A DNA stretch of 64,000 nucleotides, from positions 186,001 to 250,000 of the forward strand of contig NZ_JAHDTF010000011.1 of NCBI RefSeq assembly GCF_018531465.1. Direction: 5' to 3'. Of this stretch, positions 1-35,342 are shown in pieces. The notes under the pieces are model-generated. The model was not told where the DNA came from. It worked only from the letters and a program-made list of their open reading frames with translations, and made no database searches. Both the position numbers and the translations under genes were made by a program. Every line of letters begins with the position of its first letter. Positions within the stretch are counted from its first letter, which is position 1. The stretch comes from Sphaerisporangium fuscum. GTDB taxonomy: Bacteria; Actinomycetota; Actinomycetes; Streptosporangiales; Streptosporangiaceae.

Positions 1-369
1 CCGACCGAGCTCGTCCACGGCGCCACGCCCGTCACCGGGGAGACCAGCAGGCTCACCCTCTCCTTCGGGTTCGTCGTCGACCCGCGCGGCGTCTGGGAGC
101 GGCCCCTGCGCCCGGCACCCGGCCTCGAACCCGAGCTCGTCGACGGCGTACGCGCCCACCTGCGCACCCGCCCGATGCATCCCGCGCGTGCGGGGGCGAT
201 CGACCTCCTGCTCGCCCAGAGCGCGGCGTTCCGCGTGCGCGACATCGCCGACGCCCTCGGCGGTGACCCCTCGGTCGTGTGGGAGGAGGCCCACCGGCTC
301 CTCAAGCTCGGCCTCCTCCAGAGCCGGGCCCCCGAGCCCGTCCCCGGAGCACGCCGCGTCGCCCTGTAG
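1..369 (+). CDS. C-terminal part of a 2OG-Fe(II)-oxygenase-like protein with a winged-helix-like tail
   Basis: Only the last 122 codons are in the window; the frame is open from base 1 to the TAG at 367-369. The visible start, with a His in ELVHGATP followed by SRLTLSFGF, resembles the end of a 2-oxoglutarate/Fe(II) oxygenase jelly roll (distal metal His, then the 2OG-binding Arg). The last 65 residues form a separate small domain ending in LLKLGLL that looks like a winged helix, as in four other proteins of this cluster. It lies 26 bases upstream of another oxygenase on the same strand. The oxygenase call rests on a short segment and is tentative; the position in the RiPP-like cluster suggests a peptide-tailoring hydroxylase. 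Confidence 0.6.
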   Translation, partial: PTELVHGATPVTGETSRLTLSFGFVVDPRGVWERPLRPAPGLEPELVDGVRAHLRTRPMHPARAGAIDLLLAQSAAFRVRDIADALGGDPSVVWEEAHRLLKLGLLQSRAPEPVPGARRVAL

Positions 370-395
370 CGGCCGGCCGTCCCCGAAAGGACGTC

Positions 396-1115
396 ATGAA
401 CATCGACTCGACGTTGCGTCCCCACCTCGACGCGCTGGACGACCGCTACTGCGAGGTGCTCGCCCTGACGCCGCACGCCGAAGCGATCATCCGGAGCCCC
501 GGCCCGGCCCACGAGGCCGGAGATCGCTTCCTTCGGGCCGGCTTCGTCCGGATCCCCGGCGTCGTCTCGCCGGCCGCGCTCGAGGCGCTGGCCGGGGAGC
601 TGTGGCCGATCCTGTCGCCGCTGGCGTTCGCGGTGCGGGTTCCACACACCACCGGGCCGGCGGGCACCCTGCTGGGCGGCGGGCGGTTGCGCCGGGTCGA
701 CACCGGCTCGCTGGAGCGGGACGGCCAGGGCGACGCCCTCGCCTCGGTGCTGAGGGCGGTCGGGCTCGTGGAGTTCGGCAGGCTCCTCGCCGACCGGCTC
801 GCACCGATCCTGCGGCACGTCATCGGGCCGGCCGTCTACGAGCGCATGTTCTTCAACCTGTACGACGAGGGCGACTACATCAGCCCCCACGACGACGCCC
901 ACATGGGGGACCGCATCGACGTCACCTTCCCGGTGACCCTCGACGGCGTCGGCGGCCTGCGCGTGCTGTCCGGGGGGTACCTCGAGACGCACTACGACGG
1001 CGAGGGGGCGATGAGCGTCCTCGGCCCGAGGGTCTGGCACGAGGTCCCCCCGCTCCTGCGCGTGTCGCCCGAGCGGCCACCCCGGCGCCTGACCATCACC
1101 ATGCGGTACGTCTAG
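396..1115 (+). CDS. 2OG-Fe(II) oxygenase family protein
   Basis: This 239-residue protein has the cupin-type hydroxylase signature. A HxD pair (H165, D167, in SPHDDAH) and a distal His (H215, in RVWHEV) would hold Fe(II), and R230/R231 near the C-terminus (PRRLTI) would bind 2-oxoglutarate. The start is the ATG at 396, which has a GAAAGGA Shine-Dalgarno sequence just upstream. It follows another oxygenase-like gene, and its stop overlaps by 4 bases the stop of the convergent methyltransferase gene. In this context it is a candidate for hydroxylating the peptide product of the neighbouring cluster; the substrate is not visible from sequence. Confidence 0.8.
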   Translation: MNIDSTLRPHLDALDDRYCEVLALTPHAEAIIRSPGPAHEAGDRFLRAGFVRIPGVVSPAALEALAGELWPILSPLAFAVRVPHTTGPAGTLLGGGRLRRVDTGSLERDGQGDALASVLRAVGLVEFGRLLADRLAPILRHVIGPAVYERMFFNLYDEGDYISPHDDAHMGDRIDVTFPVTLDGVGGLRVLSGGYLETHYDGEGAMSVLGPRVWHEVPPLLRVSPERPPRRLTITMRYV

Positions 1116-2560
1116 TCCTTCGGGTCGAAGGCGTCGTCGTCCCACAGTCCGGCGCGCAGGGCCAGGGTGCGCACGTGAAGCCGCCGGTCGGGGGAGCCGG
1201 CGACGGTGCCGCGCAGCAGGTCGAGGTCCGCGCGGGACAGCGTCACGGTCCGGCCGAGGTGCCCTGGGGGAAGGGCGAGGTGGACCACGTCCGCGGGACC
1301 GGCGAATGCTTCGATGACGAGGGCGTCGCCCGGGACGCGGATCGGCGCCGCCAGCACGGCGTCCCGCCCCCGGTGCACCGCGGAGATGCCGCGGAGCAGG
1401 CGCACGATCGACAGGGGTGCGACGCCGTCCCACAGGCTGCCGTCCACCTGGACGGTCTCCCGCCAGCCGCGGCAGGTGGCCGCCGGACGCTCGAACACCG
1501 CGATCGCCGGCCTGAGGGCCGCCAGCCCGACCCGGGCGAGATGCGTCCGCATGGCGGGGACGGCGGCGTCGAAGGAGGCCACGCCCTCACGCAGCAGGGG
1601 CAGGGCGTACCTCGTGCTGTAGACGTCGGCGTCCACCGGCGAGCCGAGAAGGCGCAGGCCGCACAGGCCCGGCTCCGGCGCCGGCAGCCGCCACGGGTCG
1701 GCGTCGTCCCCGCCGGAGGTCACCGGGGCCTCGTAGACGACCGCCGCCCGCCCTCCCGCCCGCAGGTGGGCCGGGGCCCCGGCGATGACCCGGGACGGCA
1801 GGTCGACGCCCCGCCGGCCGCCGTACAGGTACGCGGCCTCGGCCGTCTCCGGCGGCCGGGGGACGAAGGGGGGCTGCGCGACGATGAGGTCGAACCGCTC
1901 CCCGGCGACGGGGTCGAACAGGTCCCCCGACCTGAACTCCACGGTGGTCACGCCGTTCACCCGGGCGTTGACCCGGGCGAGCGCGAGCGCCCGCTCGTTG
2001 ACGTCGGTGGCGACCACCCTGGAGGCGTGCCGGCTCAGGGCGAGGGCCGCCGCGCCCGCCCCGCACCCGATGTCGGCGGCCACACCCGCGGGCCAGCGGG
2101 CCGACACCACGCCGCGGAAGGCCTCGTTGCCGAGGCCGCCGCCGAACACCGCGTCGCCGCGCCGGGTGACGTCGTCGCACAGCACGAACAGGTCCCCCTG
2201 GGCGCGCAGCAGCAGGTCCGACCGTACCGTTCCTCCGGGCGCCTCCAGCAGCAGGCCCGCGTCGAGGGCGGTGGCCAGTACGGGACGGGTCAGGGCGGCG
2301 GCCGCCGCCCGCTCGCCGATCGGTTGTCCCAGGCAGAACAGCCGGTAGACGTCGGCTGCGGGCTCCTCGAGCCCGCTCGCGCGCCACTGGTGGATCGGCC
2401 GGTGCAGGCCGGGGTACCGGTCACGCGGCGCCCTCCACATCGCCGCGCAGTAGGCGGGGCCGAAGCCGACCTCGGCCAGCCTGAGTCCGAACGCCCGCCA
2501 CGCCTCCGGGCGCACCCGGGCGAAGCCGGAGATGTCGGGGAGTTCCCCGGAGCCGCTCAC
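1112..2560 (-). CDS. HemK/PrmC-like SAM-dependent methyltransferase
   Basis: This is a 482-residue class I methyltransferase. A N-terminal helical/winged-helix region (about 40-120) is followed by the Rossmann core with the SAM-binding motif ADIGCGAG and, further on, AQPPF, equivalent to the NPPY motif of HemK-like N- and Q-methyltransferases. Actinobacteria have stand-alone proteins of this layout whose targets are mostly unknown. The GTG start at 2560 shares a GTGA overlap with the stop of the upstream asparagine-synthetase-like gene, so translation is coupled. It is the last gene of the minus-strand operon, which fits tailoring of the cluster's product, but a housekeeping protein or RNA target cannot be excluded. 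Confidence 0.8.
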   Translation of the reverse strand: MSGSGELPDISGFARVRPEAWRAFGLRLAEVGFGPAYCAAMWRAPRDRYPGLHRPIHQWRASGLEEPAADVYRLFCLGQPIGERAAAAALTRPVLATALDAGLLLEAPGGTVRSDLLLRAQGDLFVLCDDVTRRGDAVFGGGLGNEAFRGVVSARWPAGVAADIGCGAGAAALALSRHASRVVATDVNERALALARVNARVNGVTTVEFRSGDLFDPVAGERFDLIVAQPPFVPRPPETAEAAYLYGGRRGVDLPSRVIAGAPAHLRAGGRAAVVYEAPVTSGGDDADPWRLPAPEPGLCGLRLLGSPVDADVYSTRYALPLLREGVASFDAAVPAMRTHLARVGLAALRPAIAVFERPAATCRGWRETVQVDGSLWDGVAPLSIVRLLRGISAVHRGRDAVLAAPIRVPGDALVIEAFAGPADVVHLALPPGHLGRTVTLSRADLDLLRGTVAGSPDRRLHVRTLALRAGLWDDDAFDPKD

Positions 2561-4848
2561 GCCGCCGGTCCCGCGGGGAGGCCGCTCGCCGCCGCCGTGA
2601 GGTCGGGCGAGGCGTCCGGACACCCGGCCGGCGTGGCTTCGACGAGCCAGCGGCGCGCCAGGAACGCCTCGACCACGGGGGCCGCCACGTCGGCGCTCAC
2701 GCCGAGGGCGGCCGCCAGGTCGGCGAGGCCCAGCCGCGGGGAACGGATCAGCCGGTCGAGCCGGGCGGCCGGGCAGTCCGGCGCGAGCTCGACCCGGGCC
2801 ACCACCCCGCCGCCGTGGATGACGAGCAGGTGGCGCTCCGGGCCGGTGGTGACGGCCAGGGTCACGCCCTTCGCGGGCCGGAACGCGGCTCCGGGCAGCG
2901 GGCGCGCCGCCGCGCCGCCCGCGGCCTCGGCCGGTACGGCGCCGGGGACGCTCTCGGGGGCCGGTACGGTGCCGGCGGCGACCCCGGGAGCCGGCAGCGG
3001 GCACGGCAGGGCCCGGGAGAGGGGCGGCCGCAGGCCGGGCCGGGCCAGATCGCGGCAGGTCCGCTCGAAAACCGCGATGGCCATGCACCGCAGAAGCAGG
3101 GCGGCCGCGTCGTCGGCCGCCCCGGCGCGGGCGGCGCGGTCGTGGAGCTCGACGAGGCGCCGCTCGTCGAACAGCGTGTCGTCCGCGCGGAGGTACTTCT
3201 CCCGGAAGTCGCCGAACGACGCCTCGATCAGCCGCGAGCGGAGCAGCCGGATCGACCCGCCGCGCCCGCCGGTGGCGTACATGGGGGTCTTGGGCCGGTG
3301 GGCGATCGAGGCGGGGAGAACCCGTTCGGCGACGAGCCGGACGATGCGCTTGTCGTGGAAGAGCCGCTCGTGCAGCGCGGGCGGTACCGAGCACAGCAGC
3401 TCGACGAGCCGGTGGTCGAGGAAGGGCACCCTGCTCTCCCGGCCGCTCGCCGAGGCCGTGCGGTCCTCGTGCCACAGGTTGTGCGCGGCGAGGTCGCCGA
3501 ACCGCGCCGCCTGCCAGGCGGGCGACGACGCGGGGAGGTCCGCCGGCGGGGCGTCGGTGACCCGCGCGCCGACCAGCGGGGCGAACGCGGCGGGGATCCC
3601 GAGCGTGCGGGCCCGCGCGCGGCGCAGCGCGGCGGCCTCGTGCCGGGTCCACTCGGCCCAGGTGGACGAGCCGAGCCGGGAGTACCCGCCGGCGAACTCG
3701 TCCGCGCCCTGGCCGAGCAGGACGACCTTCATGTCGGGGCGGGTCGCGGCGACGTAGCGGTGGAGTTCGTGCTTGAAGAGGATCTCGGGGTCGAACACCG
3801 GGAAGTCCATGATCCAGACGAGGTGCTCCAGCGTCGGGAGGCCGAGCCCGATGGTCGAGGCGAGCGCGTCGGCGTCGACCCGCACCGCGTGCAGCGGCAG
3901 GCCGAGGGCACGGGCGGCGGACCGGGCGGCCGCCGGATCACCGGCCGCCGTGATCGACGGCTCCACCAGCGTGAACGCCTCCAGCGCGTCGTTGTGCCGC
4001 GCCGCGAGGGCGGCCACCAGCGCCGAGTCGACCCCTCCGCTGAGGAACACCCCGACCGGCACGTCGCTCATGAGCCGCAGGCGCACGCTGTCGGCCAGCA
4101 GCTCGGCGTACCGTTCGATCCATCCGGCCGCGTCCCCGGCCCCGTCCGGCGACGGCCCGGCGGGCTCCCAGTAGCGGGTGCCGGTCACCGGACGGCCGGG
4201 ACGCCACTCCACGTAGCAGCCGGGCTCCACCTGCTCGACCCCCTCGACCCCGGACGGGACCGCCCGCCCCGCCGGGCGCTGGTAGGGGAAGCTCAGGCCG
4301 GGCACGTCGTGGAAGGCGTCCCAGTCCAGAGACCTCGGCGCGTCGGGGTGGACGAGCAGCGCCCGGAGCTCCGAGGCGAACACCAGCCGCCCGCCGAGCT
4401 CGGCGTAGTACAGCGGCTTGACGCCGAGACGGTCGCGGGCGAGCACGAGGCGGCGTTCCCAGGCGTCCCAGACGGCGATGGAGAACATGCCGTTCAGCTC
4501 CGCGAACGCCGAGGTCCCCATCGACGCGAACAGGTGCAGCACGATCTCGCAGTCGGAGCGGGTGCGAAGGCGGTCCCCCGGCACGTGACGGCGTGCCAGC
4601 TCGGCGTGGTTGTAGATCTCGCCGTTCACCACCACGGTCAGCCGGCCGTCCGGGGACCGGAACGGCTGGTGGCCGCCGGTCAGGTCGTTGACGGCGAGGC
4701 GTCTGAAGACCACGCGGAAGTGGTCGTCGGCGTGGAGGCTCTCGCCGTCGGGGCCGCGGGCCGCGAGAAGGCGGCCCATGGCCCGCAGCAGGTGGACCTC
4801 CGCGCCCGGCTCGGGCGAGCCCCCCACGGTTCCGGCGAAACCGCACAT
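2557..4848 (-). CDS. Asparagine-synthetase-like amidotransferase with C-terminal winged-helix-like extension
   Basis: At 763 residues this is longer than usual for AsnB (about 600-650). It starts MCGFAG, so Cys2 is the glutaminase nucleophile of a class II amidotransferase domain (1-210, with NGEIYNHAEL). The synthetase domain carries the PP-loop FLSGGVDSA, which would activate a carboxylate as acyl-AMP. After the synthetase fold, a Gly/Pro/Ala linker leads to a roughly 100-residue tail that ends in a helix-rich winged-helix-like segment (FLARRWLV), like those on other enzymes here. In RiPP pathways AsnB homologues make amides or lactams on peptides. Lying 10 bases after the glycosyltransferase gene, it probably acts on the precursor peptides. 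The earlier in-frame start upstream was rejected because Cys must be residue 2. Confidence 0.88.
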   Translation of the reverse strand: MCGFAGTVGGSPEPGAEVHLLRAMGRLLAARGPDGESLHADDHFRVVFRRLAVNDLTGGHQPFRSPDGRLTVVVNGEIYNHAELARRHVPGDRLRTRSDCEIVLHLFASMGTSAFAELNGMFSIAVWDAWERRLVLARDRLGVKPLYYAELGGRLVFASELRALLVHPDAPRSLDWDAFHDVPGLSFPYQRPAGRAVPSGVEGVEQVEPGCYVEWRPGRPVTGTRYWEPAGPSPDGAGDAAGWIERYAELLADSVRLRLMSDVPVGVFLSGGVDSALVAALAARHNDALEAFTLVEPSITAAGDPAAARSAARALGLPLHAVRVDADALASTIGLGLPTLEHLVWIMDFPVFDPEILFKHELHRYVAATRPDMKVVLLGQGADEFAGGYSRLGSSTWAEWTRHEAAALRRARARTLGIPAAFAPLVGARVTDAPPADLPASSPAWQAARFGDLAAHNLWHEDRTASASGRESRVPFLDHRLVELLCSVPPALHERLFHDKRIVRLVAERVLPASIAHRPKTPMYATGGRGGSIRLLRSRLIEASFGDFREKYLRADDTLFDERRLVELHDRAARAGAADDAAALLLRCMAIAVFERTCRDLARPGLRPPLSRALPCPLPAPGVAAGTVPAPESVPGAVPAEAAGGAAARPLPGAAFRPAKGVTLAVTTGPERHLLVIHGGGVVARVELAPDCPAARLDRLIRSPRLGLADLAAALGVSADVAAPVVEAFLARRWLVEATPAGCPDASPDLTAAASGLPAGPAA

Positions 4849-4858
4849 GCCGTCCGCC

Positions 4859-6904
4859 TCACCCGAGGGGCGACCGCAGCAGCGGCGGGAGCGCGGCCGG
4901 ATCGGACCGGGCCCCCTTGCGCCACCCCAGGACGGGATCGGTCTCACCGAAGACGATCACCCCCAGCCGGTACAGCCGGTCGAGCGCGGCCAGGACGGCG
5001 GCCCGAGCCTCAGGACCGGCGTCCGATGCCGTGGCGGCCACGACCTCGCCGGTCGTGAGGCTTCCGTCGCAACGGGAAAGGAGCTCCAGGGTGCGCTCGT
5101 CGATCTCCAGTTCGCGGGGGATGAGGTTGGGCAGCCGCTGGAACAGCACCAGCATCGGCCGCGCCGTCACCGACCGGAAGGCCTCGCCGTCGGCGGGGGA
5201 GCGGCCGGCGGGGTCGGCCCACACGGGGAACAGCGCCGCCACGTCGTGCTCGAACCGCTCGGCCCACGCCGTGACGGCCCGCACGGGGTACAGGCCGTCC
5301 GCGTCGCCGCCGACCGGCCGGCCGCCGAGCCGGTCGACCACGGCGTACGGCGGCGGGGCGTCCGGCATGTCGTGACTCGCGTGGATCCGGGCGGCCTGGT
5401 AGCGCAGGGCGTCCCGCACGACGGGCGCGTACCCGGCGAGAGGCCCCGACGCCAGGCGGCCGGCGAGGAACGCGCAGAACCGCAGCCCGCACGAGGCCGG
5501 GTCGGTCGCCGGGCCGGTGGCCGCGAACTCCTCCACGGCGGACGGCCAGCTCGCCCGCACGTACCGCAGCAGGGAGGGCGCGACCAGCCCGAGCACGTCC
5601 TCCACGTCACCCGGCGCCGCCGGGCCGTCAGCGGCGGCCTTCGGCCGGGCATGGTGCCGGAGGAGGTCCTCCCAGGCGGCGACGTACGCCTCGAAGTCCC
5701 CCGGCGTGCCGCCGCCGGTCTGCGCGCCGGCCGCGCCGAGCCGCCTGGCGCCCTCGGGGTCGTCGACGACCCACCTGAGCGCGGCCGTCAGCGCGTCACC
5801 GTCCTTGGGGTCGCCGACGACCAGGGGATTCTCACCCGGCCGTGGCCCGTCGCCGTGCCCCTGCTTGTCGGCGATCTCTCCCGACAGCACCAGGCAGGTG
5901 CCGCAGGCCATGACCTCGCGGGCGACGACCGGGCCGTGGATGGCGACGGGGAAGTCGCGTTCGAGGAAGCACACGGCCGTGCAGGCCCGGATGAACGACG
6001 GCACCCTCCAGTTGGGGAGGTACGGCAGGATGATCGTGCGCTTGGCCAGCCCGGCGTCCCGCAGCGCGGGCGCGAGGAGCTCGCCCATCGGGCCGCCGAC
6101 CATGGCGAGGAAGGTGAAGGACCTGCCCTCGGCGGCCAGCCGGCCGAGCGCCCGCACCAGGTCGAACGTGCCCTTCGTCTCACCGACCTTGCCGTAGACG
6201 CCGATGGCGGGGACCGCGGGGTCGAACGGGCGCGGCCGGTTGCCCTCGCCGTCGCGCAGCGCGACCGCGTCGACGTCCAGCGGTTCGGCGCCGGGGTGGA
6301 ACGCCGGGGCGAGGGCGTACGGCGGGTCGAGGACGATGCGGCCGGGCGGCACACCCATGCCCGCGAAGCGCCGCACGAGGTGACGTCGCGTCACCACCGC
6401 GTCGGCGCTCCTGAGGACCTCTTTGTACGCCGTGGCCAGGCCGGGCACCCCGGCGAGCCGGTCGAGGTCGCTGCCCGCGTGCTTGACGATCAGCGGGCGG
6501 CCGGTCCACCGTGAGGCGAGCCACCCGGCCACGCCGTACGGCTCGAAGTAGTACGCGAGCACGACCTCGCATCCGTGCCGGCGCACGACGTCCGTGGCCA
6601 GGGAGGACAGCCGGGTCACGTACGGGTCGGCGACCGGGATGTGCGCCATCGCGCGCCGGGCGAAGGACTCCACGCCGTGCACGCGCACCCGCCCGCCCGT
6701 GCCGGGGAACTCCGGCTGCATCAGCGGGGCGTCCCGCGGCCCGAGCGTGATGCGGTAGCGGTCGTCGACCTCGTCGGCGTTGGTCACCACGTGCACCTCG
6801 TGACCCCGCGCGGCCAGCCCCCGGGCGAGCCAGTACGTCGAGGAGCTGACCCCGCCCTCGATCGGCGGGTACTTGCCCACGATGCAGACGCGCATGGGGA
6901 TCAC
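4859..6904 (-). CDS. Family-4 glycosyltransferase with long C-terminal extension
   Basis: This 681-residue protein has an N-terminal GT-B fold (about 1-400), opening with VCIVGKYPP and a Gly-rich EGGVSSS loop, and GKVGETKG in the second domain, as in GT4 enzymes. About 260 extra residues follow. The last 80 (around LLSRCDGSLTTGE and ending LYRLGVI) look like the PqqD/winged-helix domain found on RiPP enzymes. The GTG at 6904 overlaps the stop of the DUF692 gene by 4 bases; an in-frame ATG at 6895 is an alternative. It probably transfers a sugar to the modified peptide. The donor and acceptor cannot be read from sequence. Such fusion of a glycosyltransferase to a peptide-reader-like domain is unusual. 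Confidence 0.85.
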   Translation of the reverse strand: MIPMRVCIVGKYPPIEGGVSSSTYWLARGLAARGHEVHVVTNADEVDDRYRITLGPRDAPLMQPEFPGTGGRVRVHGVESFARRAMAHIPVADPYVTRLSSLATDVVRRHGCEVVLAYYFEPYGVAGWLASRWTGRPLIVKHAGSDLDRLAGVPGLATAYKEVLRSADAVVTRRHLVRRFAGMGVPPGRIVLDPPYALAPAFHPGAEPLDVDAVALRDGEGNRPRPFDPAVPAIGVYGKVGETKGTFDLVRALGRLAAEGRSFTFLAMVGGPMGELLAPALRDAGLAKRTIILPYLPNWRVPSFIRACTAVCFLERDFPVAIHGPVVAREVMACGTCLVLSGEIADKQGHGDGPRPGENPLVVGDPKDGDALTAALRWVVDDPEGARRLGAAGAQTGGGTPGDFEAYVAAWEDLLRHHARPKAAADGPAAPGDVEDVLGLVAPSLLRYVRASWPSAVEEFAATGPATDPASCGLRFCAFLAGRLASGPLAGYAPVVRDALRYQAARIHASHDMPDAPPPYAVVDRLGGRPVGGDADGLYPVRAVTAWAERFEHDVAALFPVWADPAGRSPADGEAFRSVTARPMLVLFQRLPNLIPRELEIDERTLELLSRCDGSLTTGEVVAATASDAGPEARAAVLAALDRLYRLGVIVFGETDPVLGWRKGARSDPAALPPLLRSPLG

Positions 6905-7746
6905 CGGCGGCCCTCTCCCGCGGCGGTGATGATCTGCCGCGACCGGTCGACGTCGTCGAGCATCGGCGTGAGCTCGTCGGGGAAGTCGGCGTCCTGCTCG
7001 AGGATGCTCACCCGCACCGGGACCCGCTCGGCCAGCACCTCCAGCAGCTTCCAGGTCGGCTCGTTCACCCGGGCGCAGTGGCCGTCGATGTAGACGTCGC
7101 CGTCCAGGAAGCCGCCCGCCAGGTGGATCTGCACCACGGCGTGGAGCGGCATCGAGTCGAGGAACGCCTCGGCGGAGAAGCCGTGGTTGCAGGAGTTGAT
7201 GTGGACGTTGGCGACGTCGAGCAGCACGCCGCAGCCGGTCGCCTCAACCATGCGGTGGAAGAACTCGCCCTGGCTCATCGTGGCGTACGGGATCTCGAGA
7301 AGGTAGGAGATGTTCTCGACCACGAGCGGCCTGCCGAGGAAGTCCTGCACGGCCGCGATGTTGTCGACGACGGTGCGCAGCTGGTCCTCGACGAACCACA
7401 CGGGGGACAGGTGACCGATGTCGATCCCGGGCGCCCGGGTGATCGCCAGGTGCTCGCTGTAGTAGGGCGCGTCGATGAGGTCGCAGACCCGCTTCACGCG
7501 GCTCAGGTAGTCGCGGTCGAGCGGCCCGACGGTGCCGAGCGACAGGCCGACGCCGTGCGGGATGACCGGGAAATGGTCGGCGAGTTCCTCCAGCTCGCCT
7601 TCGGCGTCCATGAACTGCTCGGTGACGATTTCGAGGACGTCGATGCGCCCGGCCGCCCGCAGGATGTGGTCGCGCAGCTCGCGCCGGTAACCGAGCCCGG
7701 ATCCCAGGTGGGGGACGCCGGGGAGGTGCTCGCCGGAAGATGTCAT
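6901..7746 (-). CDS. DUF692 multinuclear non-heme iron oxidative enzyme (MNIO)
   Basis: This 281-residue TIM-barrel protein of the MbnB/TglH family keeps the metal-binding set: H64 (PHGVGLSLG), E98-H99 (YSEHL), E144-N145 (VENIS), D177, N180, N184 and H188 (around DVANVHINSCNHG), H208 (IHLAGG), D221/H223 and E250. Known family members use two or three iron ions and oxygen to rearrange or cleave Cys (oxazolone/thioamide in methanobactin, carbon excision in 3-thiaglutamate, thiooxazoles in bufferins). It overlaps the partner gene's stop (ATGA at 7743-7746), which matches the usual pairing of an MNIO with a leader-binding partner. The Cys-repeat peptides at 10388-10776 are its likely substrates. 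Confidence 0.93.
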   Translation of the reverse strand: MTSSGEHLPGVPHLGSGLGYRRELRDHILRAAGRIDVLEIVTEQFMDAEGELEELADHFPVIPHGVGLSLGTVGPLDRDYLSRVKRVCDLIDAPYYSEHLAITRAPGIDIGHLSPVWFVEDQLRTVVDNIAAVQDFLGRPLVVENISYLLEIPYATMSQGEFFHRMVEATGCGVLLDVANVHINSCNHGFSAEAFLDSMPLHAVVQIHLAGGFLDGDVYIDGHCARVNEPTWKLLEVLAERVPVRVSILEQDADFPDELTPMLDDVDRSRQIITAAGEGRR

Positions 7747-8567
7747 GCCTCTGCCTCCCTTGCCGCGACCGTCACGACCCCGAGGCCGGCGAGCCGGCGC
7801 AGCGTGCCGAGGACGGCGGCTGTCAGATCGCCGGACCGCAGCGCCTTCTCGGCCTCGCCCACGACACCGGCGGCGGTCCGCCGCCCGTCGCACAGGCGGA
7901 GCACCAGCGCGGTCGCCCCGTTGACGCGGAGCATCCGCTGCTCGCCGGCGTCCCGGCCCGGCCGGAAGACCACGGTGTTCGGGGACGGCGGCGGATCCCC
8001 CGCGGCCTCGCCCGCCCGCAGCGCGGCGTCGAGGGCGACGACGTCGTGGCCGAAGTCGTCGATCAGGACTCCGGCCGGCACGACCGGGATGTCGGACGGC
8101 GCCATCTCCCGCGCGTGTTCGCCCCCGGCGACGGCCCGCCACACGAAGGTCGCCTCGTACGCCAGCCGCTCGAACCGCAGGAGCTCGGCGACGGCAGGGG
8201 GGAACCGGCCGGGATCGGCCAGGGTCTGCTCGGCGAAGCCGCCGAAGTCGAGGACGTCCCGGTGGGAGGTCCCCGCCGGGCGGGCGCAGGACACCTCGAG
8301 GTGGCGTGCGAGCACGGCCTCCATGGCCGCGTGGTTCCAGGCGAACGAGGCGGAGTAGGCCCGCCGCAGACGCTTGCCCCGCTTGTTGCGCAGGGTCGCG
8401 GCGAACACCTCCAGCATCCGCTGGTCGACGGCCTCGAGCGCCGCCGCCTCGCGGGCGGTGAGGTCGTACCCGGCGAGCGTGCCCGCCGGGTCGGCGCGGA
8501 AGAGGGTGCGGAAGGTGTCGCTGACGTAGAGCCGGGCCAGGCACGACTGCATCTCGAGGAGGCTCAC
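7743..8567 (-). CDS. MNIO partner protein with C-terminal PqqD-like domain
   Basis: This 274-residue protein is encoded directly upstream of the DUF692 gene and overlaps it by 4 bases. The N-terminus (LLEMQSCLARLYVS, then RADPAGTLAGYDLT) resembles the helical start of MNIO partner proteins such as MbnC and DUF2063-type proteins, which bind the leader peptide and deliver it to the oxygenase. The last 70 residues (LRLCDGRRTAAGVV to LAGLGVV) match the look of a PqqD/RRE winged helix. The GTG start at 8567 is chosen because its GTGA overlaps the upstream stop; ATG at 8552 is an alternative. Assignment rests on gene order and weak motif likeness, so the exact family remains open. Confidence 0.75.
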   Translation of the reverse strand: MSLLEMQSCLARLYVSDTFRTLFRADPAGTLAGYDLTAREAAALEAVDQRMLEVFAATLRNKRGKRLRRAYSASFAWNHAAMEAVLARHLEVSCARPAGTSHRDVLDFGGFAEQTLADPGRFPPAVAELLRFERLAYEATFVWRAVAGGEHAREMAPSDIPVVPAGVLIDDFGHDVVALDAALRAGEAAGDPPPSPNTVVFRPGRDAGEQRMLRVNGATALVLRLCDGRRTAAGVVGEAEKALRSGDLTAAVLGTLRRLAGLGVVTVAAREAEA

Positions 8568-10312
8568 GGGCGGCACCGCGCCCGTGACTCGATGAAGTCG
8601 AGGATGCCGCCCACGGCGTCCACATCGCCGTGATGTTCCATGAAGGCCTCGCAGAAGTACTCGAACATGAGCAACTGGCGTTTGGCGGTGAAGCAGAAGC
8701 CGAGCTCGTGACGGTCGAGGTAGTCGCCGGGCAGGCGGCTCTCGCACAGCTGATCGAACTCCTGCAGCCGGCGGACGCCGGAGGACGGCGCGCCGAGCTT
8801 CTCGCGCAGGACGACGTCGACGACCGCCGGGCCGTAGACCGGGGCGAAGCGCCGCAGGGCGAGCCGCCGGAGGATGTACTTGCGCACGCCGATGTCGGCG
8901 CGCACCAGGTGCCGCAGGGGGATGCGCCGGGCGAGCTCCACCATGGGGTCGTCGAGGTACGGCACGCGCATCTCCAGCCCGGCGGACATGGCGCACCGGT
9001 CCACGACGTCGAGGTGCAGGCGCTGCAGCGGGTCGCCGAGGTTCACCTCGAACACGGCGCGAAGGTGCTCGTCGAACGGCCCCGCCGCCGACAGCCGCAC
9101 GATGGTCTGCGCCGCGAGGTCGCTCGGCGCCGTGCCGAGCCGCTTGAGCAGCCCCAGCCGCCGCTGGAAGGACCTCGCCCGGTAGCCGCGGTCGAGGTAC
9201 TCGGGGTACCCGCCGAACAGCTCATCGGCCCCTTCGCCGTGGACGCACGCCTTGACCTCGCCCGCGATCCGCCCGCAGAGGTACTGGAAGCTCGCCCCGA
9301 ACAGACTGGCGGGCCCTTCCTCGGAGCGGACGAGGGCGGGGATCGTCTCCAGGTAGGAGCCGGCGTCGAGGACGCAGGTGCGGTGGTCGGAGCCGATCAG
9401 CTTCGCGACCGTCTCGGCCTGCACGATGTCGGGATGCTCGGCGTGGTCGGCCACGGTGAAGGTGCGCAACGGGAGGTCGGTCTGCTCGCGGGCGAAGAGC
9501 GCCAGCAGGGTGGAGTCGATGCCTCCGGAAAGGGTGAACCCGACCTCGACGTCCGCCGCGAGGTGGGTGCGCACGGCGTCCTCGAACGCGGCGGCCAGAC
9601 GCTCCTCGGCCTCTTCGTAGGTCATCGCGTCGTCGCGCGCGGAGTCGGAGGAGTGGTACGGCGCGGGTGGCTCCACCTGGAGCGCGCCGGCGAACGAGAC
9701 CCGCATGGTGTGCCCGGGCGGCAGCGCGCGGACGCCGTCGAACAGGGTCTGGTCGCCGACGAGGTGGCCGAGGACGACGAGGTCGGCGAAGGCCTGCCGG
9801 TCGAGCCGTGGCCGGCGCCCGAGCCGGGGAAGGATCGCCTTGGCCTCGGAGGCGAACAGGAACGCCGGGGTCTCGGGGACGAGCGCGTAGTAGAGCGGCT
9901 TGATGCCGAGCCGGTCGCGGGCGAGGAAGAGCCGGTCGCCGTGCAGGACGGCGAAGGCGAACATGCCCCGCAGCCGCTGGACGCACCCCTCGCCGTGCTC
10001 TTCGTACAGGTGGAGCACGACCTCGCTGTCGCAGCGGGTACGGAAGCGGTGCCCTCTTGCGGCCAACTCGGCGCGCAGCTCACGGTGGTTGTAGATCTCG
10101 CCGTTGAAGACGAGGTGGATCGTGCCGGTCTCGTCGGAGATCGGCTGGGAGCCGGCGGCGGGGTCGACGATCGCGAGGCGGGTCGCCCCCACCCGGGCGG
10201 CGCCGGCGCCGGTCCAGCCGCGCCCGTCCGGCCCCCGATGGGACAGGGCGAGCGTCATCTGCTCGACCGCGCCCGCGCCGGTCGTTCCGACGGTTCCCGC
10301 GATGCCGCACAT
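8564..10312 (-). CDS. Asparagine-synthetase-like amidotransferase (second copy)
   Basis: This 582-residue protein has normal AsnB length. Cys2 (MCGIAG) begins the glutaminase domain with HRGPDG and NGEIYNH; the synthetase domain has TLSGGIDSTLL for ATP binding and EGADELFGGYPEY in the acceptor site. The enzyme would release ammonia from glutamine and attach it, or another amine, to an adenylated carboxylate. It is the first enzyme gene after the precursors and a stem-loop, and it overlaps the partner gene (GTGA). Unlike the copy at 2557-4848 it has no C-terminal extension. Having two different AsnB-type enzymes in one RiPP-like operon suggests two separate acyl activations. A role as true asparagine synthetase is possible but less likely here. 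Confidence 0.88.
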   Translation of the reverse strand: MCGIAGTVGTTGAGAVEQMTLALSHRGPDGRGWTGAGAARVGATRLAIVDPAAGSQPISDETGTIHLVFNGEIYNHRELRAELAARGHRFRTRCDSEVVLHLYEEHGEGCVQRLRGMFAFAVLHGDRLFLARDRLGIKPLYYALVPETPAFLFASEAKAILPRLGRRPRLDRQAFADLVVLGHLVGDQTLFDGVRALPPGHTMRVSFAGALQVEPPAPYHSSDSARDDAMTYEEAEERLAAAFEDAVRTHLAADVEVGFTLSGGIDSTLLALFAREQTDLPLRTFTVADHAEHPDIVQAETVAKLIGSDHRTCVLDAGSYLETIPALVRSEEGPASLFGASFQYLCGRIAGEVKACVHGEGADELFGGYPEYLDRGYRARSFQRRLGLLKRLGTAPSDLAAQTIVRLSAAGPFDEHLRAVFEVNLGDPLQRLHLDVVDRCAMSAGLEMRVPYLDDPMVELARRIPLRHLVRADIGVRKYILRRLALRRFAPVYGPAVVDVVLREKLGAPSSGVRRLQEFDQLCESRLPGDYLDRHELGFCFTAKRQLLMFEYFCEAFMEHHGDVDAVGGILDFIESRARCRP

Positions 10313-10333
10313 CCGCCGCCTCTAGTTCATCGG

Positions 10334-10361
10334 GCCGGCGGCGCGGGGACCGGCCGCCGGC
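10334..10361 (-). terminator. Stem-loop between precursor genes and enzyme genes
   Basis: GCCGGCGGC (10334-10342) pairs perfectly with GCCGCCGGC (10353-10361) across a 10-base loop, with no U-tract. It sits in the only real gap of the minus-strand operon, between the second precursor stop (10388) and the start of the AsnB-like gene (10312). RiPP operons often use such a structure as a leaky terminator or mRNA stabiliser so that precursor exceeds enzyme. The function here is inferred. Confidence 0.55.
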
Positions 10362-10387
10362 GTGAGTGGGATGCGCTCATGCGCGGG

Positions 10388-10582
10388 TTACATGGAGCAG
10401 CCGCTGCAGCCGTTGCAGCCGCCGCAGCTGGAGACCAGGTCGCCGTCGGGCGCGAGGCGCCGGACGAGGTCCTGGATGCGGAACTCGACGGCGAGGTGGT
10501 GGTCGTCGGTCAGCTGTACCGACGCCTCCTCGAGCGAGGTGATCTTGCGAACCCGGCGCTCGGAACCGCTTGACTCGGTCAT
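10388..10582 (-). CDS. Cys-repeat RiPP precursor peptide A
   Basis: This 64-residue peptide has a charged leader (1-50) that includes VEFRIQDLVRRL, and a 14-residue tail with Cys at 53, 56, 59 and 62, spaced CxxCxxCxxC with Gly, Asn and Ser between, and a final Met. It is downstream of precursor B and overlaps it with an ATGA junction. Leader and tail align with precursor B (VEFxIxDLxR, then VSxC). No domain of known function is visible; size, Cys-Gly-rich end and position ahead of an MNIO operon make it a strong precursor candidate. The Cys spacing could also bind metal directly, so a small metal-binding protein is the main alternative. Confidence 0.87.
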   Translation of the reverse strand: MTESSGSERRVRKITSLEEASVQLTDDHHLAVEFRIQDLVRRLAPDGDLVSSCGGCNGCSGCSM

Positions 10583-10776
10583 CGGTCCACCTCCGGAGCC
10601 GCGGCGCTGCAGCTGTTGCAGCCGTTGCAGGACACGACGGGCCTGATGCCCTCGACTTTGATCTGGCGGATGAGGTCGTCGATCAGGAACTCGACCTGGA
10701 CGCGGTCGCGATCGACGAGACGGATCTTGGGACGGTCGGCGCCTGGCGCGCCTTCTTCTTCGGATGAGGTCATCAT
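10579..10776 (-). CDS. Cys-repeat RiPP precursor peptide B
   Basis: This 65-residue peptide has an acidic N-terminus, a leader segment VQVEFLIDDLIRQI like that of precursor A, then Cys at 50, 53 and 56 (CNGCNSC). A nine-residue tail, SAAAPEVDR, follows and could be a follower peptide removed later. Two ATGs lie side by side (10776 and 10773), both behind an AGAGGGGG Shine-Dalgarno sequence; 10776 is used here. It is the first gene of the minus-strand operon, with a plausible promoter at 10892-10920. The ATGA overlap with precursor A means both are made together, so the cluster may give two related products or one joined from both. Confidence 0.85.
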   Translation of the reverse strand: MMTSSEEEGAPGADRPKIRLVDRDRVQVEFLIDDLIRQIKVEGIRPVVSCNGCNSCSAAAPEVDR

Positions 10777-10891
10777 TTCCCCCTCTGGGCCGGTTTCTGC
10801 CCGGTCGAGCCCATTTCGGTGATGTGGGGGTGCCACGCGGCTTTGGTGGTGAACGACATTGCCCGTGCCGGCTATTGGCGATGTCGTGTGT

Positions 10892-10920
10892 ACCGTACCC
10901 GTGGGATAATGGCCTGGCAA
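10892..10920 (-). promoter_or_regulatory. Predicted promoter of the precursor operon
   Basis: Read on the minus strand, TTGCCA (10915-10920) and TACGGT (10892-10897) are separated by 17 bases, matching the housekeeping -35/-10 layout of actinobacteria. Transcription would start near 10885, leaving a leader of about 110 bases before precursor B. The call is by consensus only. Confidence 0.4.
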
Positions 10921-10936
10921 GCATTAATTAAAGATC

Positions 10937-10964
10937 TTGAATTCCCTTCTCCTCGTGCCATAAT
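10937..10964 (+). promoter_or_regulatory. Predicted promoter of the divergent glycosyltransferase gene
   Basis: TTGAAT (10937-10942) and CATAAT (10959-10964) are spaced 16 bases apart in an AT-rich patch. The expected start of transcription falls on or next to the ATG at 10970, and no Shine-Dalgarno sequence precedes that ATG. This suggests a leaderless mRNA, which is common in actinobacteria. Confidence 0.4.
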
Positions 10965-10969
10965 CGCCT

Positions 10970-12691
10970 ATGGCCTTTGCGAGTCCGCTCGTTTCCCTCG
11001 ACGCCCGGCGGAGGCCCGTGAGAAGTCTCGTGATCGGAATCGCCCGCCACGGCGGCACCGAGGGGTCCGGCCTCGGCGCGTCTCCGGGGACGCGATTGCT
11101 GTTCTCCCTGCTGGAGCGGAGCCTGCGCCAGAAATGCTCCTTACGTCGGCTTCCTCCGTATTTTTATGGCATTGCTCCGCGGCAGGCCGTCGAGATCGCC
11201 GAGGAGCTGCTGGGCGAGGTCGACGCGTTGGTGCTGTCGCTTCCGCCGCATCCGGCCGATCTTGAGGCGTTGTTCCTGGTGCGCCGACAATTACGGCGAC
11301 GCATACCCTTTGTGTATCTTCCGCTCGGCGAGTTCCCCCGCGGAGCCTGGTTCTACCGTCATTTCCACCAGTATCTCGGCCCCGACGATCTCATTTGGTT
11401 CTCCAGTGCCGCCGATCGTCAGGTCCATGATCTGCTCGTCGCCTCGCCCAGGGCGCGTATCCGCGTCCTTCCTTTCGGGATCGACCTCGCCCCTTATTCC
11501 GGCGCGGCCGCAACTCGAGCGACCACGAGGCGACATTTAGGGATAAATCATGAAGAGGTCGTATTTGTCGTTCATGGGCGGCTTGATCCGGAGAAGAATG
11601 TGCACGGGGTGGCGGCCGTGTTCGGTGAGGTGGCCCGCCGCGCCCCCGCGTGCCGTCTGTGGGTCGTCGGTCCCGTTCCCGGGGACTTCCGGCTGATGCC
11701 CGGACCGCATCCCCTCGCGGCGGTCCCCGCGGGCCCGTACAAGGACCTGCTCGCCGCCGGCCTGGGCGGGGACGGCGCCGGGCGCGTCTCGTTCTGGGGC
11801 GGCGTGCCCCAGGAACTGCTCCCGCGCGTCCTCGCCGCCGCCGACATCGGCGTGAACCTCACCGTGAACCGCGACGAGAACTTCGGGTTCAGCGTCGTCG
11901 AGGCGATGGCCGCGGGCCTGCCGGTGATCGGCACCGACTGGGGCGGGCTCCGCGACACGATCGACGACGGCGTGACAGGGTTCCGCGTGCCGACGGTCGT
12001 CACCGCGGCGGGGATCGCCGTCGACCACCCCGCCGCCGTACGGCACGCGCTCGACCTCGCCGCCGACGGGCCGGCGCGCAGGCGGATGGGCGAGGCGGCG
12101 GCCGCCAGGGCACGTGATCGTTACGCGATCGACCAGTGTGCCGATCACCTGCTGCTCGAGGTGCGGCGCCTGCTCGCCCGTCCCCGCCCGGCACGCCCGC
12201 ACCGGTGGACCTCCCTCGGCCTGCGGCTCGTCCAGGAGCACTCGGTCCGTCTCTCCGGCGCCGGCTCCCGCTCCTTCCCGCTCCCGCTCCCGCCCGCGGC
12301 GCTCGACGAGCGGGCACGCGCGATCATCCGGCCGTACGCGACCCGCACACAGGACCTCGAACCCGATCCCGGCGCCGTCGTCCTGCTCGCCTCGCCCCTG
12401 ATCCGCTGCGACGGCCGGGCCGTGACGTCCGCCGATCCGGCCTACCCGATCGACGGCCGTCTCGCCGGCCCCGCCGACCTCCTCGTGTGCCGCGTCCTCG
12501 CGGCCGAGGGACCGGTGGGAGTGCGCGATCTGCTGGCCTCCGCGGCCGGCACGGCGACGCGGCAGGAGGTCCTCGACGCGCTGCGGCGGCTGCTCGCGGC
12601 CGGAGTCGTGCTGCAGTCGAGGGAGCCCGCGCCGGCATGTCATGACACTGGAAAGGACGAGGCGCATGTGGATCCTCGGAATCGCCGGTAG
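10970..12691 (+). CDS. Family-4 glycosyltransferase with C-terminal winged-helix-like extension
   Basis: This 573-residue protein has a GT-B fold in residues 1-400. GRLDPEKN marks the nucleotide-sugar domain, and ENFGFSVVEAMAAG is the E-x7-E motif of retaining GT4 enzymes. A roughly 165-residue extension ends in LLAAGVV, similar to the tails of four other proteins here. Translation may begin leaderless at ATG 10970 or at GTG 11018 behind GGAGG. Three TTA leucine codons (58, 108, 190) occur in the AT-richer first third, so expression may depend on the rare bldA-type tRNA. It is divergent from the precursors and overlaps the carbamoyltransferase gene. It probably adds a second sugar to the product. 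Confidence 0.86.
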   Translation: MAFASPLVSLDARRRPVRSLVIGIARHGGTEGSGLGASPGTRLLFSLLERSLRQKCSLRRLPPYFYGIAPRQAVEIAEELLGEVDALVLSLPPHPADLEALFLVRRQLRRRIPFVYLPLGEFPRGAWFYRHFHQYLGPDDLIWFSSAADRQVHDLLVASPRARIRVLPFGIDLAPYSGAAATRATTRRHLGINHEEVVFVVHGRLDPEKNVHGVAAVFGEVARRAPACRLWVVGPVPGDFRLMPGPHPLAAVPAGPYKDLLAAGLGGDGAGRVSFWGGVPQELLPRVLAAADIGVNLTVNRDENFGFSVVEAMAAGLPVIGTDWGGLRDTIDDGVTGFRVPTVVTAAGIAVDHPAAVRHALDLAADGPARRRMGEAAAARARDRYAIDQCADHLLLEVRRLLARPRPARPHRWTSLGLRLVQEHSVRLSGAGSRSFPLPLPPAALDERARAIIRPYATRTQDLEPDPGAVVLLASPLIRCDGRAVTSADPAYPIDGRLAGPADLLVCRVLAAEGPVGVRDLLASAAGTATRQEVLDALRRLLAAGVVLQSREPAPACHDTGKDEAHVDPRNRR

Positions 12692-14360
12692 CCACAACTC
12701 GGCGGCGGCGCTGGTCCACGACGGTGTCGTGGTCGTGGCGGTGCAGACCGAGAGGCTGACCCGGATCAAACGCCACGCGATCGACCTGTCCCGCATGTCC
12801 GGCGACGCCGTCCGCGTCATCGAGTACTGCCTGCGCGCGGCCGGCATCGACCTGCCCGACATCGACGCCATCGCGACGTGCTCGCCGTACGAGCCCGCGG
12901 CCAGGTTCCTCTTCGAGGACCCCGCCGCCGCGCCCGTGGGCCTGCCGCCGTTCGTCTCCGTACCGCACCACCTCGCGCACGCCGAATACGTCATCCACTA
13001 CGCGCCCGCCGAGCCGTCGATCGTCCTGGTCTGCGACGGCAGCGGCACCTTCGAGCACCACCGCGCTGGGCTCGACATCCAGGAGCTCGAAGCCGACCCG
13101 GTCCGCCACGTGACCGCGTCCGGCAAGGAGTCGATCTCCGCCTACACCTACGACGGCCGCGACCTGCGGCTGATCCACCGCATCGCCCACGGTCCCGCGC
13201 CCTGCCGGCCGCCCGGCGCGGTGTTCCGCACCCCGCACGGCGAGGTGCTGGTGAGCCTCGGCCACCTGTGGCAGTGGGCGGCGCACTACTGCCACGGCGG
13301 CGTCAACGAGGCCGGCAAGGTGATGGGCCTGGCTCCGTTCGGCGACCCCGCCGTCCACCGCGACCTGCGGACCGTGACGATGAGCCCCGACGGCGACCTG
13401 TCGATCGACTTCGCGGCGCTCTTCGACCGCTTCGGGCGGCCCAACACCGAGGCCCGCGACGTGACCGGCGTGAAGCACTACGAGGACCTCGCCGCCCACG
13501 TGCAGGAGGTCACCGACGACTTCCTGACCCGGCTGGTGCGGCTGCTGAGGAGCAGGTACGAGACCGACGTCGTCTGTTACAGCGGCGGGGTCGCGCTGAA
13601 CGGCATCGCCAACCAGCATCTGGTGCGCACTCTCGGCATCGACCTCCGCATGAACGGCTCCTGCGAGGACAACGGGACGGCCATCGGCGCGGCCCTCGCC
13701 GTCCACCACGCCAAGGCCGGCACAAGGGTGGTCGAACCCATCCGCGACGACTACGGCCGTGAATACTCCGCGGGGGAGATCGGCGCCGCCGTCGCCCGCG
13801 CGGGCCGCCGGGCCGAGATCCTGCCCCCCGCCCGGACGGCGGAGACGACCGCCGCGGCCCTCGCCGAGGGGGCGATCGTCGGCTGGTTCCAGGGGCGCTG
13901 CGAGTTCGGCCCGCGCGCTCTCGGCAACCGCAGCATCCTCGCCGACCCCCGCGACCCGGGCATGCAGGACCACCTGAACCGGAGGGTGAAGGGCCGCGAG
14001 GCCTTCCGCCCCTTCGCCCCGGCCGTCCTGGAGGAGCACGCCGCGGACTGGTTCGAGCTCGACGGCCCCTCGCCGATGATGCTGCGCGTCGTTCCCGTAC
14101 GGTCCGGCCGCCTGCCGGCCGTGACGCACGTCGACGGCAGCGCGCGGGTGCAGACCGTGAACCGCTCGCAGAACGCCCGGCTGCACGAGCTGCTCACCGC
14201 GTTCGGCCGGCGCACCGGGGTCCCCGTCCTGCTCAACACCTCGTTCAACATCGCGGGCGAGCCCATCGTCGAGTCCCCCGACGACGCCCTGCGCACGTTC
14301 CTGTCATCCGGCATGGACCTCCTCGTGATGGGCGACCACGTCGTGCGCGCCGAGCCCTGA
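12666..14360 (+). CDS. NodU/CmcH/TobZ-family carbamoyltransferase
   Basis: This 564-residue O-carbamoyltransferase has WILGIAGSHNSAAAL at the N-terminus, the metal-binding HHLAHA motif, a CDGSG nucleotide loop, then the C-terminal YrdC-like hallmark CEFGPRALGNRSI, EAFRPFAP and NTSFN. Family members use carbamoyl phosphate and ATP to form a carbamoyl-adenylate and carbamoylate a hydroxyl, usually on a sugar (Nod factors, tobramycin, novobiocin, bleomycin). The start at 12666 has GGAAAGGA upstream and matches the family N-terminus; it overlaps the glycosyltransferase gene by 26 bases. It most likely carbamoylates a sugar attached to the peptide. An ATG at 12642 is an unlikely alternative. Confidence 0.92.
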   Translation: MWILGIAGSHNSAAALVHDGVVVVAVQTERLTRIKRHAIDLSRMSGDAVRVIEYCLRAAGIDLPDIDAIATCSPYEPAARFLFEDPAAAPVGLPPFVSVPHHLAHAEYVIHYAPAEPSIVLVCDGSGTFEHHRAGLDIQELEADPVRHVTASGKESISAYTYDGRDLRLIHRIAHGPAPCRPPGAVFRTPHGEVLVSLGHLWQWAAHYCHGGVNEAGKVMGLAPFGDPAVHRDLRTVTMSPDGDLSIDFAALFDRFGRPNTEARDVTGVKHYEDLAAHVQEVTDDFLTRLVRLLRSRYETDVVCYSGGVALNGIANQHLVRTLGIDLRMNGSCEDNGTAIGAALAVHHAKAGTRVVEPIRDDYGREYSAGEIGAAVARAGRRAEILPPARTAETTAAALAEGAIVGWFQGRCEFGPRALGNRSILADPRDPGMQDHLNRRVKGREAFRPFAPAVLEEHAADWFELDGPSPMMLRVVPVRSGRLPAVTHVDGSARVQTVNRSQNARLHELLTAFGRRTGVPVLLNTSFNIAGEPIVESPDDALRTFLSSGMDLLVMGDHVVRAEP

Positions 14361-30858: not shown

Positions 30859-30862
30859 GTGT

Positions 30863-33731: not shown

Positions 33732-33732
33732 G

Positions 33733-35304: not shown

Positions 35305-35342
35305 AACTCCTCTTCAGACGGCTTTGTCGGCCTTCTCCTGGC

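Follow-up and report, generated by a model that had tools for sequence, protein, structure and literature searches.

The DNA analysed here is a stretch of 64,000 nucleotides (the window) from the actinobacterium Sphaerisporangium fuscum (contig NZ_JAHDTF010000011.1, positions 186,001 to 250,000, forward strand), whose left end holds most of a gene cluster that likely specifies a ribosomally synthesized and post-translationally modified peptide (RiPP) built around a multinuclear non-heme iron-dependent oxidative enzyme (MNIO). Genes were called by codon usage in the window and in the 20 kb to its left, and proteins were scanned against Pfam and NCBIfam, giving one compact cluster of 13 genes at window positions -2704 to 14360. 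Window position 1 cuts the oxygenase gene OX1, and the left end of the cluster lies ~2.7 kb outside the window, at a second carbamoyltransferase gene, CT1. From left to right, in window coordinates, the genes are:

CT1, -2704 to -671 (L003:3296-5329), plus strand: carbamoyltransferase, 677 aa, PF16861 and PF02543, with a probable C-terminal domain like the RiPP recognition element (RRE)
OX1, 3' part, 1 to 369, plus strand: 2-oxoglutarate (2OG)/Fe(II)-oxygenase-like protein; the whole gene encodes 313 aa and starts 572 bases left of the window
OX2, 396 to 1115, plus strand: PhyH-like 2OG oxygenase, 239 aa
MT, 1112 to 2560, minus strand: class I methyltransferase with MTS domain (PF05175), 482 aa
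ASN2, 2557 to 4848, minus strand: AsnB-type glutamine amidotransferase, 763 aa
GT4a, 4859 to 6904, minus strand: family 4 (GT4) glycosyltransferase with a C-terminal PqqD/RRE-type domain, 681 aa
MNIO, 6901 to 7746, minus strand: DUF692 protein (PF05114), 281 aa
PARTNER of the MNIO, 7743 to 8567, minus strand: helical Frankia_peptide/NHLP-like N-terminus, PqqD/RRE-like C-terminus, GTG start at 8567
ASN1, 8564 to 10312, minus strand: AsnB-type amidotransferase, 582 aa
A1, 10388 to 10582, minus strand: precursor peptide, 64 aa, core end SSCGGCNGCSGCSM
A2, 10579 to 10776, minus strand: precursor peptide, 65 aa (64 from the second ATG at 10773), core VSCNGCNSCSAAAPEVDR
GT4b, 10970 to 12691, plus strand: GT4 glycosyltransferase, 573 aa, divergent from A2
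CT2, 12666 to 14360, plus strand: NodU/CmcH-type carbamoyltransferase, 564 aa, HHLAHA motif; its start overlaps the end of GT4b

The minus-strand genes A2 through MT form a string with seven junctions, five of which are 4-base overlaps (the A2 stop with the A1 start among them), the other two being gaps of 10 bases (GT4a-ASN2) and 75 bases (A1-ASN1); the overlaps suggest that the genes of the string are translationally coupled. The G+C content of the cluster is 73.4%, that of its flanks 72.0 and 72.2%. An initial annotation, made from the window sequence alone, had listed many of these parts, and it holds up for the two Cys-repeat peptides (A1 and A2, small open reading frames (ORFs) that recur in a relative, G919), the DUF692 enzyme with its metal ligands and partner, the two AsnB homologues, the two GT4 enzymes, the NodU-type carbamoyltransferase, the methyltransferase and the coupled gene strings, whose order is kept in G919. 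It also holds up for the two 2OG-oxygenase-like proteins: both keep the motif residues, although OX2 falls just below the Pfam gathering score and OX1 has no Pfam match.

Common to both precursors are the leader motif VEFxIxDLxR, which reads EFELEQL in relatives, and the core motif CxGCxxC; the ATG of A2 is preceded by a purine-rich stretch. Ten such precursors are known in total. Nine were aligned and made into a search profile, the leader F and L and the core C-x-G-C-x-x-C being invariant; the tenth is the short precursor of locus L005 in Actinoplanes sandaracinus (L005:6889-7098), which ends SCGGCDSCN. This peptide stops at Asn right after its last Cys, unlike the longer tails in the window and G919, and so helps to locate the end of the core. 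Each of five clusters encodes one long precursor (four or six Cys) and one short (three Cys). Between the window and G919, differences at codon positions 1, 2 and 3 number 18, 16 and 32 for A1 and 14, 9 and 22 for A2, with an excess at third positions that speaks against chance ORFs; against the more distant L005 those for A1 number 26, 21 and 29, a weak third-position signal.

When 338 genomes of the family were searched with the nine-precursor profile, 10 places in 7 genomes matched at E <= 0.01. Six strong matches (E <= 1e-13), in three genomes, all adjoin MNIO, ASN1 and GT4a genes. One moderate match, in G038, is a leader homologue whose core, CSHDKCGC, lacks CxGCxxC and which sits beside MNIO and PARTNER only. 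Three weak matches (E 0.001-0.009) were discarded as fortuitous: in the 3 kb inspected, each fell in or against another reading frame. The expectation that the precursor leader co-occurs with DUF692 and AsnB genes is thus borne out by all six strong matches and not by G038, whose leader homologue lacks an AsnB gene; this homologue also goes part of the way toward what the initial annotation had named as evidence against itself, precursor homologues found apart from these enzymes. A match of A1 to DUF6587 (E 0.001, residues 35-60, including the Cys/Gly-rich end) was below cut-off and was ignored.

The MNIO is the sole PF05114 match in the genome (E 5e-76), and its relatives in the PDB are 3bww, TglH (8hci) and MbnB. 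Nine residues (H64, H99, E144, D177, N180, H208, D221, H223 and E250) are invariant in all eight homologues, and the D, H, E and N positions aligning to TglH and MbnB are conserved; which of them bind iron we assume from the family at large. Its closest NCBIfam models are BufB (217 bits, cut-off 310) and HvfB (200 bits, cut-off 360), both unreached, as is the MbnB equivalog model (67.6 bits, cut-off 325). The N-terminus of PARTNER scores 41.9 bits against an Os1348/NHLP-type RiPP model (Frankia_peptide/NHLP-like), just above the cut-off of 40. A PF05114 enzyme, a partner protein and short precursors are encoded together, which is the gene content of an MNIO-type RiPP. Two observations stand apart: the N-terminal domain of PARTNER looks as if a precursor-like domain had been absorbed into it, and one MNIO homologue (G198:C6:248084-248887, L033) has an in-frame TGA.

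The C-terminal regions of GT4a and PARTNER, and probably that of CT1, appear to be one type of leader-docking domain. Pairwise hhalign probabilities were 99% for GT4a-PARTNER, 91-93% for CT1-GT4a and 83-87% for CT1-PARTNER, while control tails (CT2, ASN1, OX2, MNIO) reached <=1.7% against these three. GT4a tails match PqqD at E <= 0.2 in five of six homologues (best 2.2e-6), and NGO1945_C in one of the six; the CT1 tail alone gave no direct PqqD match. A joint 15-member profile of GT4a, CT1 and PARTNER tails matches the PqqD structures 5sxy (E 6e-5) and 5vrd (E 0.001). NGO1945 is itself described as an MNIO partner with an RRE domain in the part of PMC12452194 consulted. By these profile comparisons the GT4a domain is of RRE type and that of CT1 probably so, which, with the same type on PARTNER, would couple glycosylation and carbamoylation to the leader. 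The hhalign values for GT4b-GT4a (24-36% over 28-29 columns) and OX1-CT1 (~8%) we read as unproven, and a 'wH' label for the tails of OX1, ASN2 and GT4b was not borne out.

ASN1 and ASN2 are AsnB-type enzymes with glutaminase and synthetase domains (TIGR01536, 335 and 378 bits, cut-off 267), and the best PDB match of both is a hydroxyamidotransferase, 7ylz, above Escherichia coli AsnB. The N-terminal Cys and the SGGxDS loop are kept in both families (the copy in L020 being read from its true start). The enzymes part at the motif that is GEG(A/S)DE in AsnB and ASN1: the window's ASN1 keeps GEGADE, while ASN2 has GQGADE (residues 379-384, window 3697-3714, minus strand), with Gln in all three ASN2 sequences and Glu in ASN1 (5/5), 1ct9 and 7ylz. 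In AsnB the Glu of this motif is expected to matter for catalysis, so ASN2 may do different chemistry. The genome holds 12 PF00733 matches, and since five of them outscore both cluster copies, ASN1 and ASN2 are probably dispensable for asparagine supply. The Cys and GEGADE of ASN1 are consistent with amidation; that its target would be the peptide C-terminus is a guess by analogy with TsrC, ScdTA and PesC, as these are discussed in the sections of PMC13060819 available to us. The lasso cyclase model matches both enzymes in part (130 and 158 bits), as it might if they closed a macrolactam and did no amidation. These scores, however, are far under its cut-off of 525, and both families retain the Cys expected of enzymes that transfer amide nitrogen from glutamine, which together make lasso-type closure unlikely; scans of the cluster proteins also revealed no lasso-type protease, and we regard such closure as very improbable.

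Among the remaining enzymes, GT4b carries the usual EX7E motif of its family (as ENFGFSVVE), whereas GT4a lacks the first Glu and has HGPxVxRE there in five of six homologues. When the phylum was surveyed for GT4a, 2 of 396 genomes matched; one is the window's genome, and in the other the match sits on a contig of only 3.9 kb, too little for a judgement. OX2 matches PF05721 at E 3.4e-4 (21.4 bits, cut-off 22) and keeps HDDxHMG...WH...R in 3/3 sequences, and OX1 keeps HxHxD...H...R in all three homologues; the conserved residues of both are the iron triad and Arg expected of 2OG oxygenases. In G919, ASN2 and MT are fused as one protein of 1091 aa. As to the carbamoyltransferases, they might act as in the std cluster, by forming homocitrulline within the peptide; std has an enzyme of the same NodU family and also an MNIO (PMC13174530, in the portion consulted). 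Yet Lys occurs in none of the six cores (taken from the first Cys on) of the carbamoyltransferase-bearing clusters (window, G919 and L005), for which reason carbamoylation of a core Lys is unlikely, and the two cores that do contain Lys (CKA, in L019 and L020) sit in clusters where the stretch read holds no carbamoyltransferase; of the alternatives weighed here we give this the least credence.

Relatives of the cluster are few. With the window's MNIO as query, none of 10 congeners matched at E <= 1e-30, 11 of 341 genomes of the family did so at E <= 1e-60 (its own included), and a contig scan found one locus, L005 of A. sandaracinus. The MNIO of L019 matched 12 of 345 genomes of the order at E <= 1e-70, all in the same family, and that of L005 matched 4 of 394 genomes of the class at E <= 1e-50 (own genome included). 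Wide neighbourhoods were read for 15 MNIO loci (L021 and L022, at contig ends, on one side; G313, G198, G301, G312 and the second MNIO of G188 are outside the count), and they take three forms: extended (window, G919, L005), small (L019, L020) and others. G919, from another family, carries all 13 parts in mirror-image arrangement, with both precursors and with enzymes 45-68% identical. It also has an extra 182-aa ORF with an HEQLH motif (L047:2336-2881) between the ASN2-MT fusion and OX2; this has no Pfam match and could be a peptidase or another HExxH-type enzyme. L005 has most of the cluster, two precursors and an extra methyltransferase. CT1 was absent from the 20.8 kb read there, and a search of that genome found only CT2 and one other carbamoyltransferase match. 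The small form, in L019 (G293) and L020 (G188), consists of two precursors, GT4a, MNIO, PARTNER, ASN1 and, next to ASN1, two ATP-binding cassette (ABC) exporter genes, identified by Pfam in L019 and 63% and 74% identical to those in L020. At the other MNIO loci PARTNER is present or absent, and GT4a occurs at one (L026), without ASN1 and with a small ORF ending CLNCQACW.

Of the 15 neighbourhoods, 5 have both ASN1 and CxGCxxC precursors with the leader, and the other 10 have neither, a pattern whose value of 1/3003 is a guide and not a probability because the neighbourhoods are related. One of the ten negatives, L049, does contain CxGCxxC, but in a short frame that was not called as a gene and lacks the leader motif; it was counted as chance. 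The MNIO of G038, with 69% identity to the window's, lies beside neither a CxGCxxC precursor nor ASN1, whereas those of L019 and L020 are about 43% identical and have both; the core motif thus goes with ASN1 and GT4a, not with MNIO similarity.

These neighbourhoods bear on whether the locus is one pathway or two adjoining ones, namely a small MNIO RiPP (A1, A2, MNIO, PARTNER) and a separate carbamoylated glycoside made by the GT4s, carbamoyltransferases, AsnBs, oxygenases and MT. Sets of GT4, carbamoyltransferase, AsnB and methyltransferase enzymes are common in glycoside antibiotic clusters, which speaks for a division, as do the MNIO and PARTNER that stand without the remaining enzymes in G038 and, in G056, also without a precursor match. 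Against it, the genes interleave in an order (ASN1-PARTNER-MNIO-GT4a-ASN2) identical in the window, G919 and L005, GT4a and probably CT1 carry a fused domain of leader-binding type, ASN1 accompanies the CxGCxxC precursors, and family scans of the cluster proteins found no polyketide synthase, nonribosomal peptide synthetase or similar scaffold enzyme. We find two pathways quite unlikely, and the proposal of a single RiPP cluster with this enzyme set gains from its conservation in the window genome, G919 and Actinoplanes.

The reading that we favour, and consider likely from the gene content and its conservation, is that the cluster makes a RiPP whose Cys would be oxidised, a carboxylate amidated and the peptide glycosylated, the larger form being also hydroxylated, carbamoylated and methylated. 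The leader would dock on the PqqD/RRE-type domains of GT4a, PARTNER and probably CT1. MNIO and PARTNER would then oxidise at least one Cys of the core, a thiooxazole-type heterocycle being the likeliest outcome given that BufB and HvfB are the nearest named families; ASN1 would amidate a carboxylate, most likely the C-terminus, with glutamine-derived ammonia, and GT4a would attach a sugar to the peptide. In the extended form OX1 and OX2 would hydroxylate, GT4b add a second sugar, CT1 and CT2 place carbamoyl groups on sugar or hydroxyl oxygens, MT methylate, and ASN2, with its altered catalytic motif, carry out a second carboxylate-activation step.

Several points weigh against this RiPP pathway. 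The window's cluster genes include no recognisable leader peptidase or exporter (the flanks were not scanned systematically), and MNIO chemistry is at present not predictable, according to the part of PMC13060819 seen. The extended set is found in three clusters, with CT1 and an orthologous GT4b only in the window and G919; the GT4 beside OX1 in L005 is only a distant relative (about 27% over 255 aa). As to docking, the PqqD-like C-terminus of PARTNER scores 19.6 bits, below the Pfam cut-off of 23.4, the window's GT4a tail alone reaches only E 0.15 against PqqD, profiles of GT4a only and of CT1 only found no convincing structure in the PDB, and the tails of OX1, GT4b, ASN2 and MT gave no significant RRE/PqqD match. 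For the GT4a tail and PARTNER, with two sequences each, AlphaFold models had pLDDT of 50 and 59, and Foldseek found nothing for them at E <= 0.001; these low-confidence models are listed here but were used as evidence neither way.

A further alternative concerns the role of the product and is compatible with the RiPP pathway: the peptide might act inside the producer as a redox cofactor or a buffer for metal, and not as a secreted antibiotic or a metallophore of the kind that the initial annotation tentatively proposed. Its closely spaced Cys resemble metal sites, and neither exporter nor peptidase was recognised in the clusters of the window, G919 or L005. Set against this, the ABC exporter pair beside ASN1 in both L019 and L020 suggests that the product of these small clusters is secreted; in the window an ORF like those of the major facilitator superfamily (18191-19618, recognised by eye) lies 3.8 kb past CT2; and in G919, the one cluster whose flanks were scanned for metal genes, a heavy-metal P-type ATPase with an HMBD domain (L046:16-2388) lies ~6 kb from the cluster. 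We hold an intracellular role possible but doubtful. A more ambitious idea, which we rate as rather unlikely, is that the RiPP product would be a ribosomal counterpart of the bleomycin-type metalloglycopeptides, Cys-oxidised, amidated and metal-binding, with a carbamoylated disaccharide, its leader recruiting glycosyltransferase, carbamoyltransferase and oxidase through RRE domains. Bleomycin tailoring likewise employs two glycosyltransferases, a NodU-type carbamoyltransferase and an AsnB-type enzyme; a literature search for this comparison found nothing useful.

The main enzyme pairings have published precedents, and what seems new, as far as the literature searched goes, is their combination. 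The initial annotation's statement that no such pathway is described stands for the full enzyme set, which was not found in the papers searched (a supplementary table may list it), and not for its parts, since MNIO with AsnB (nitrilobacillins) and MNIO with NodU (std) are described. The pes cluster of the nitrilobacillins/nitrilotides resembles the present one in its pair of precursors, its MNIO and partner and its asparagine-synthetase-like enzyme, which in the nitrilobacillins converts a C-terminal carboxylate to amide or nitrile. Particular to pes are PesX, an alphaKG-HExxH enzyme, M16 peptidases and precursors that end in R(V/T)DN; it is reported only from Bacillus-related genera (PMC13060819, from the sections available). 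The present cluster differs in its two asparagine-synthetase-type enzymes, GT4s, carbamoyltransferases, CxGCxxC cores and actinobacterial hosts; none of the ten precursors ends in R(V/T)DN, though the short one of L005 does end in Asn (CDSCN). The std cluster, for a dihydroxyhomocitrulline RiPP, likewise combines a Streptomyces MNIO, an RRE-containing partner and a NodU-like carbamoyltransferase, and it alone has YcaO-TfuA, a peptidase-carbamoyltransferase fusion and a Lys-containing SNKEWQE core (PMC13174530, as excerpted). Here the carbamoyltransferases are stand-alone or RRE-fused and the cores of the clusters that bear them lack Lys; no YcaO match was found among the scanned cluster proteins, and the SNKEWQE core is absent from the precursors.

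Bufferins and oxazolin (BufB, HvfB) resemble the present system in their MNIO models, Cys-motif precursors and RRE-type partner, and the bufferin motif is EGKCG where the core here is CxGCxxC (PMC12452194 and PMC13419390, each in part). The BufB equivalog score was not reached (216.7 bits vs 310), and no Sec-like hydrophobic N-terminus was seen by hydropathy, the best 12-residue mean being <=1.27 in all nine aligned precursors. The lasso cyclase model was likewise unreached. The words asparagine, glycosyltransferase and carbamoyl are absent from the main text of PMC12452194. RRE-Finder is closest on the fusions: in the portion of PMC12710340 seen it lists RRE-type domains fused to a PF02543 carbamoyltransferase and to glycosyltransferases, the latter being named as PF00535 and given no pathway, whereas the fusion here is to a GT4 in a conserved cluster.

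The cluster is thus, on our reading, an MNIO RiPP with a conserved tailoring set that we did not find in print in the papers searched, and it would deserve the status of a class if its product proves distinct. One conserved pathway would link MNIO chemistry with leader-guided glycosylation, carbamoylation and amidation, on precursors that are short and testable. Nature supplies a small version (6 genes plus exporters) and an extended one (13 genes), so that the contribution of each enzyme could be read from a comparison of products. The RRE-fused GT4 and carbamoyltransferases, if they are such, would be portable tools for adding sugar or carbamoyl groups to chosen peptides.

Directly after CT2 the window encodes a PP2C-type phosphatase (14559-15317), not seen in the G919 cluster. 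Farther on, at 28253-36626, three similar ORFs (29761-30840, 31570-32664 and 32661-33731) share an LGxGGGG motif in what we take to be a DUF917-type catabolic cluster, with neighbours that are presumably permease-like, regulatory and possibly hydantoinase-like.

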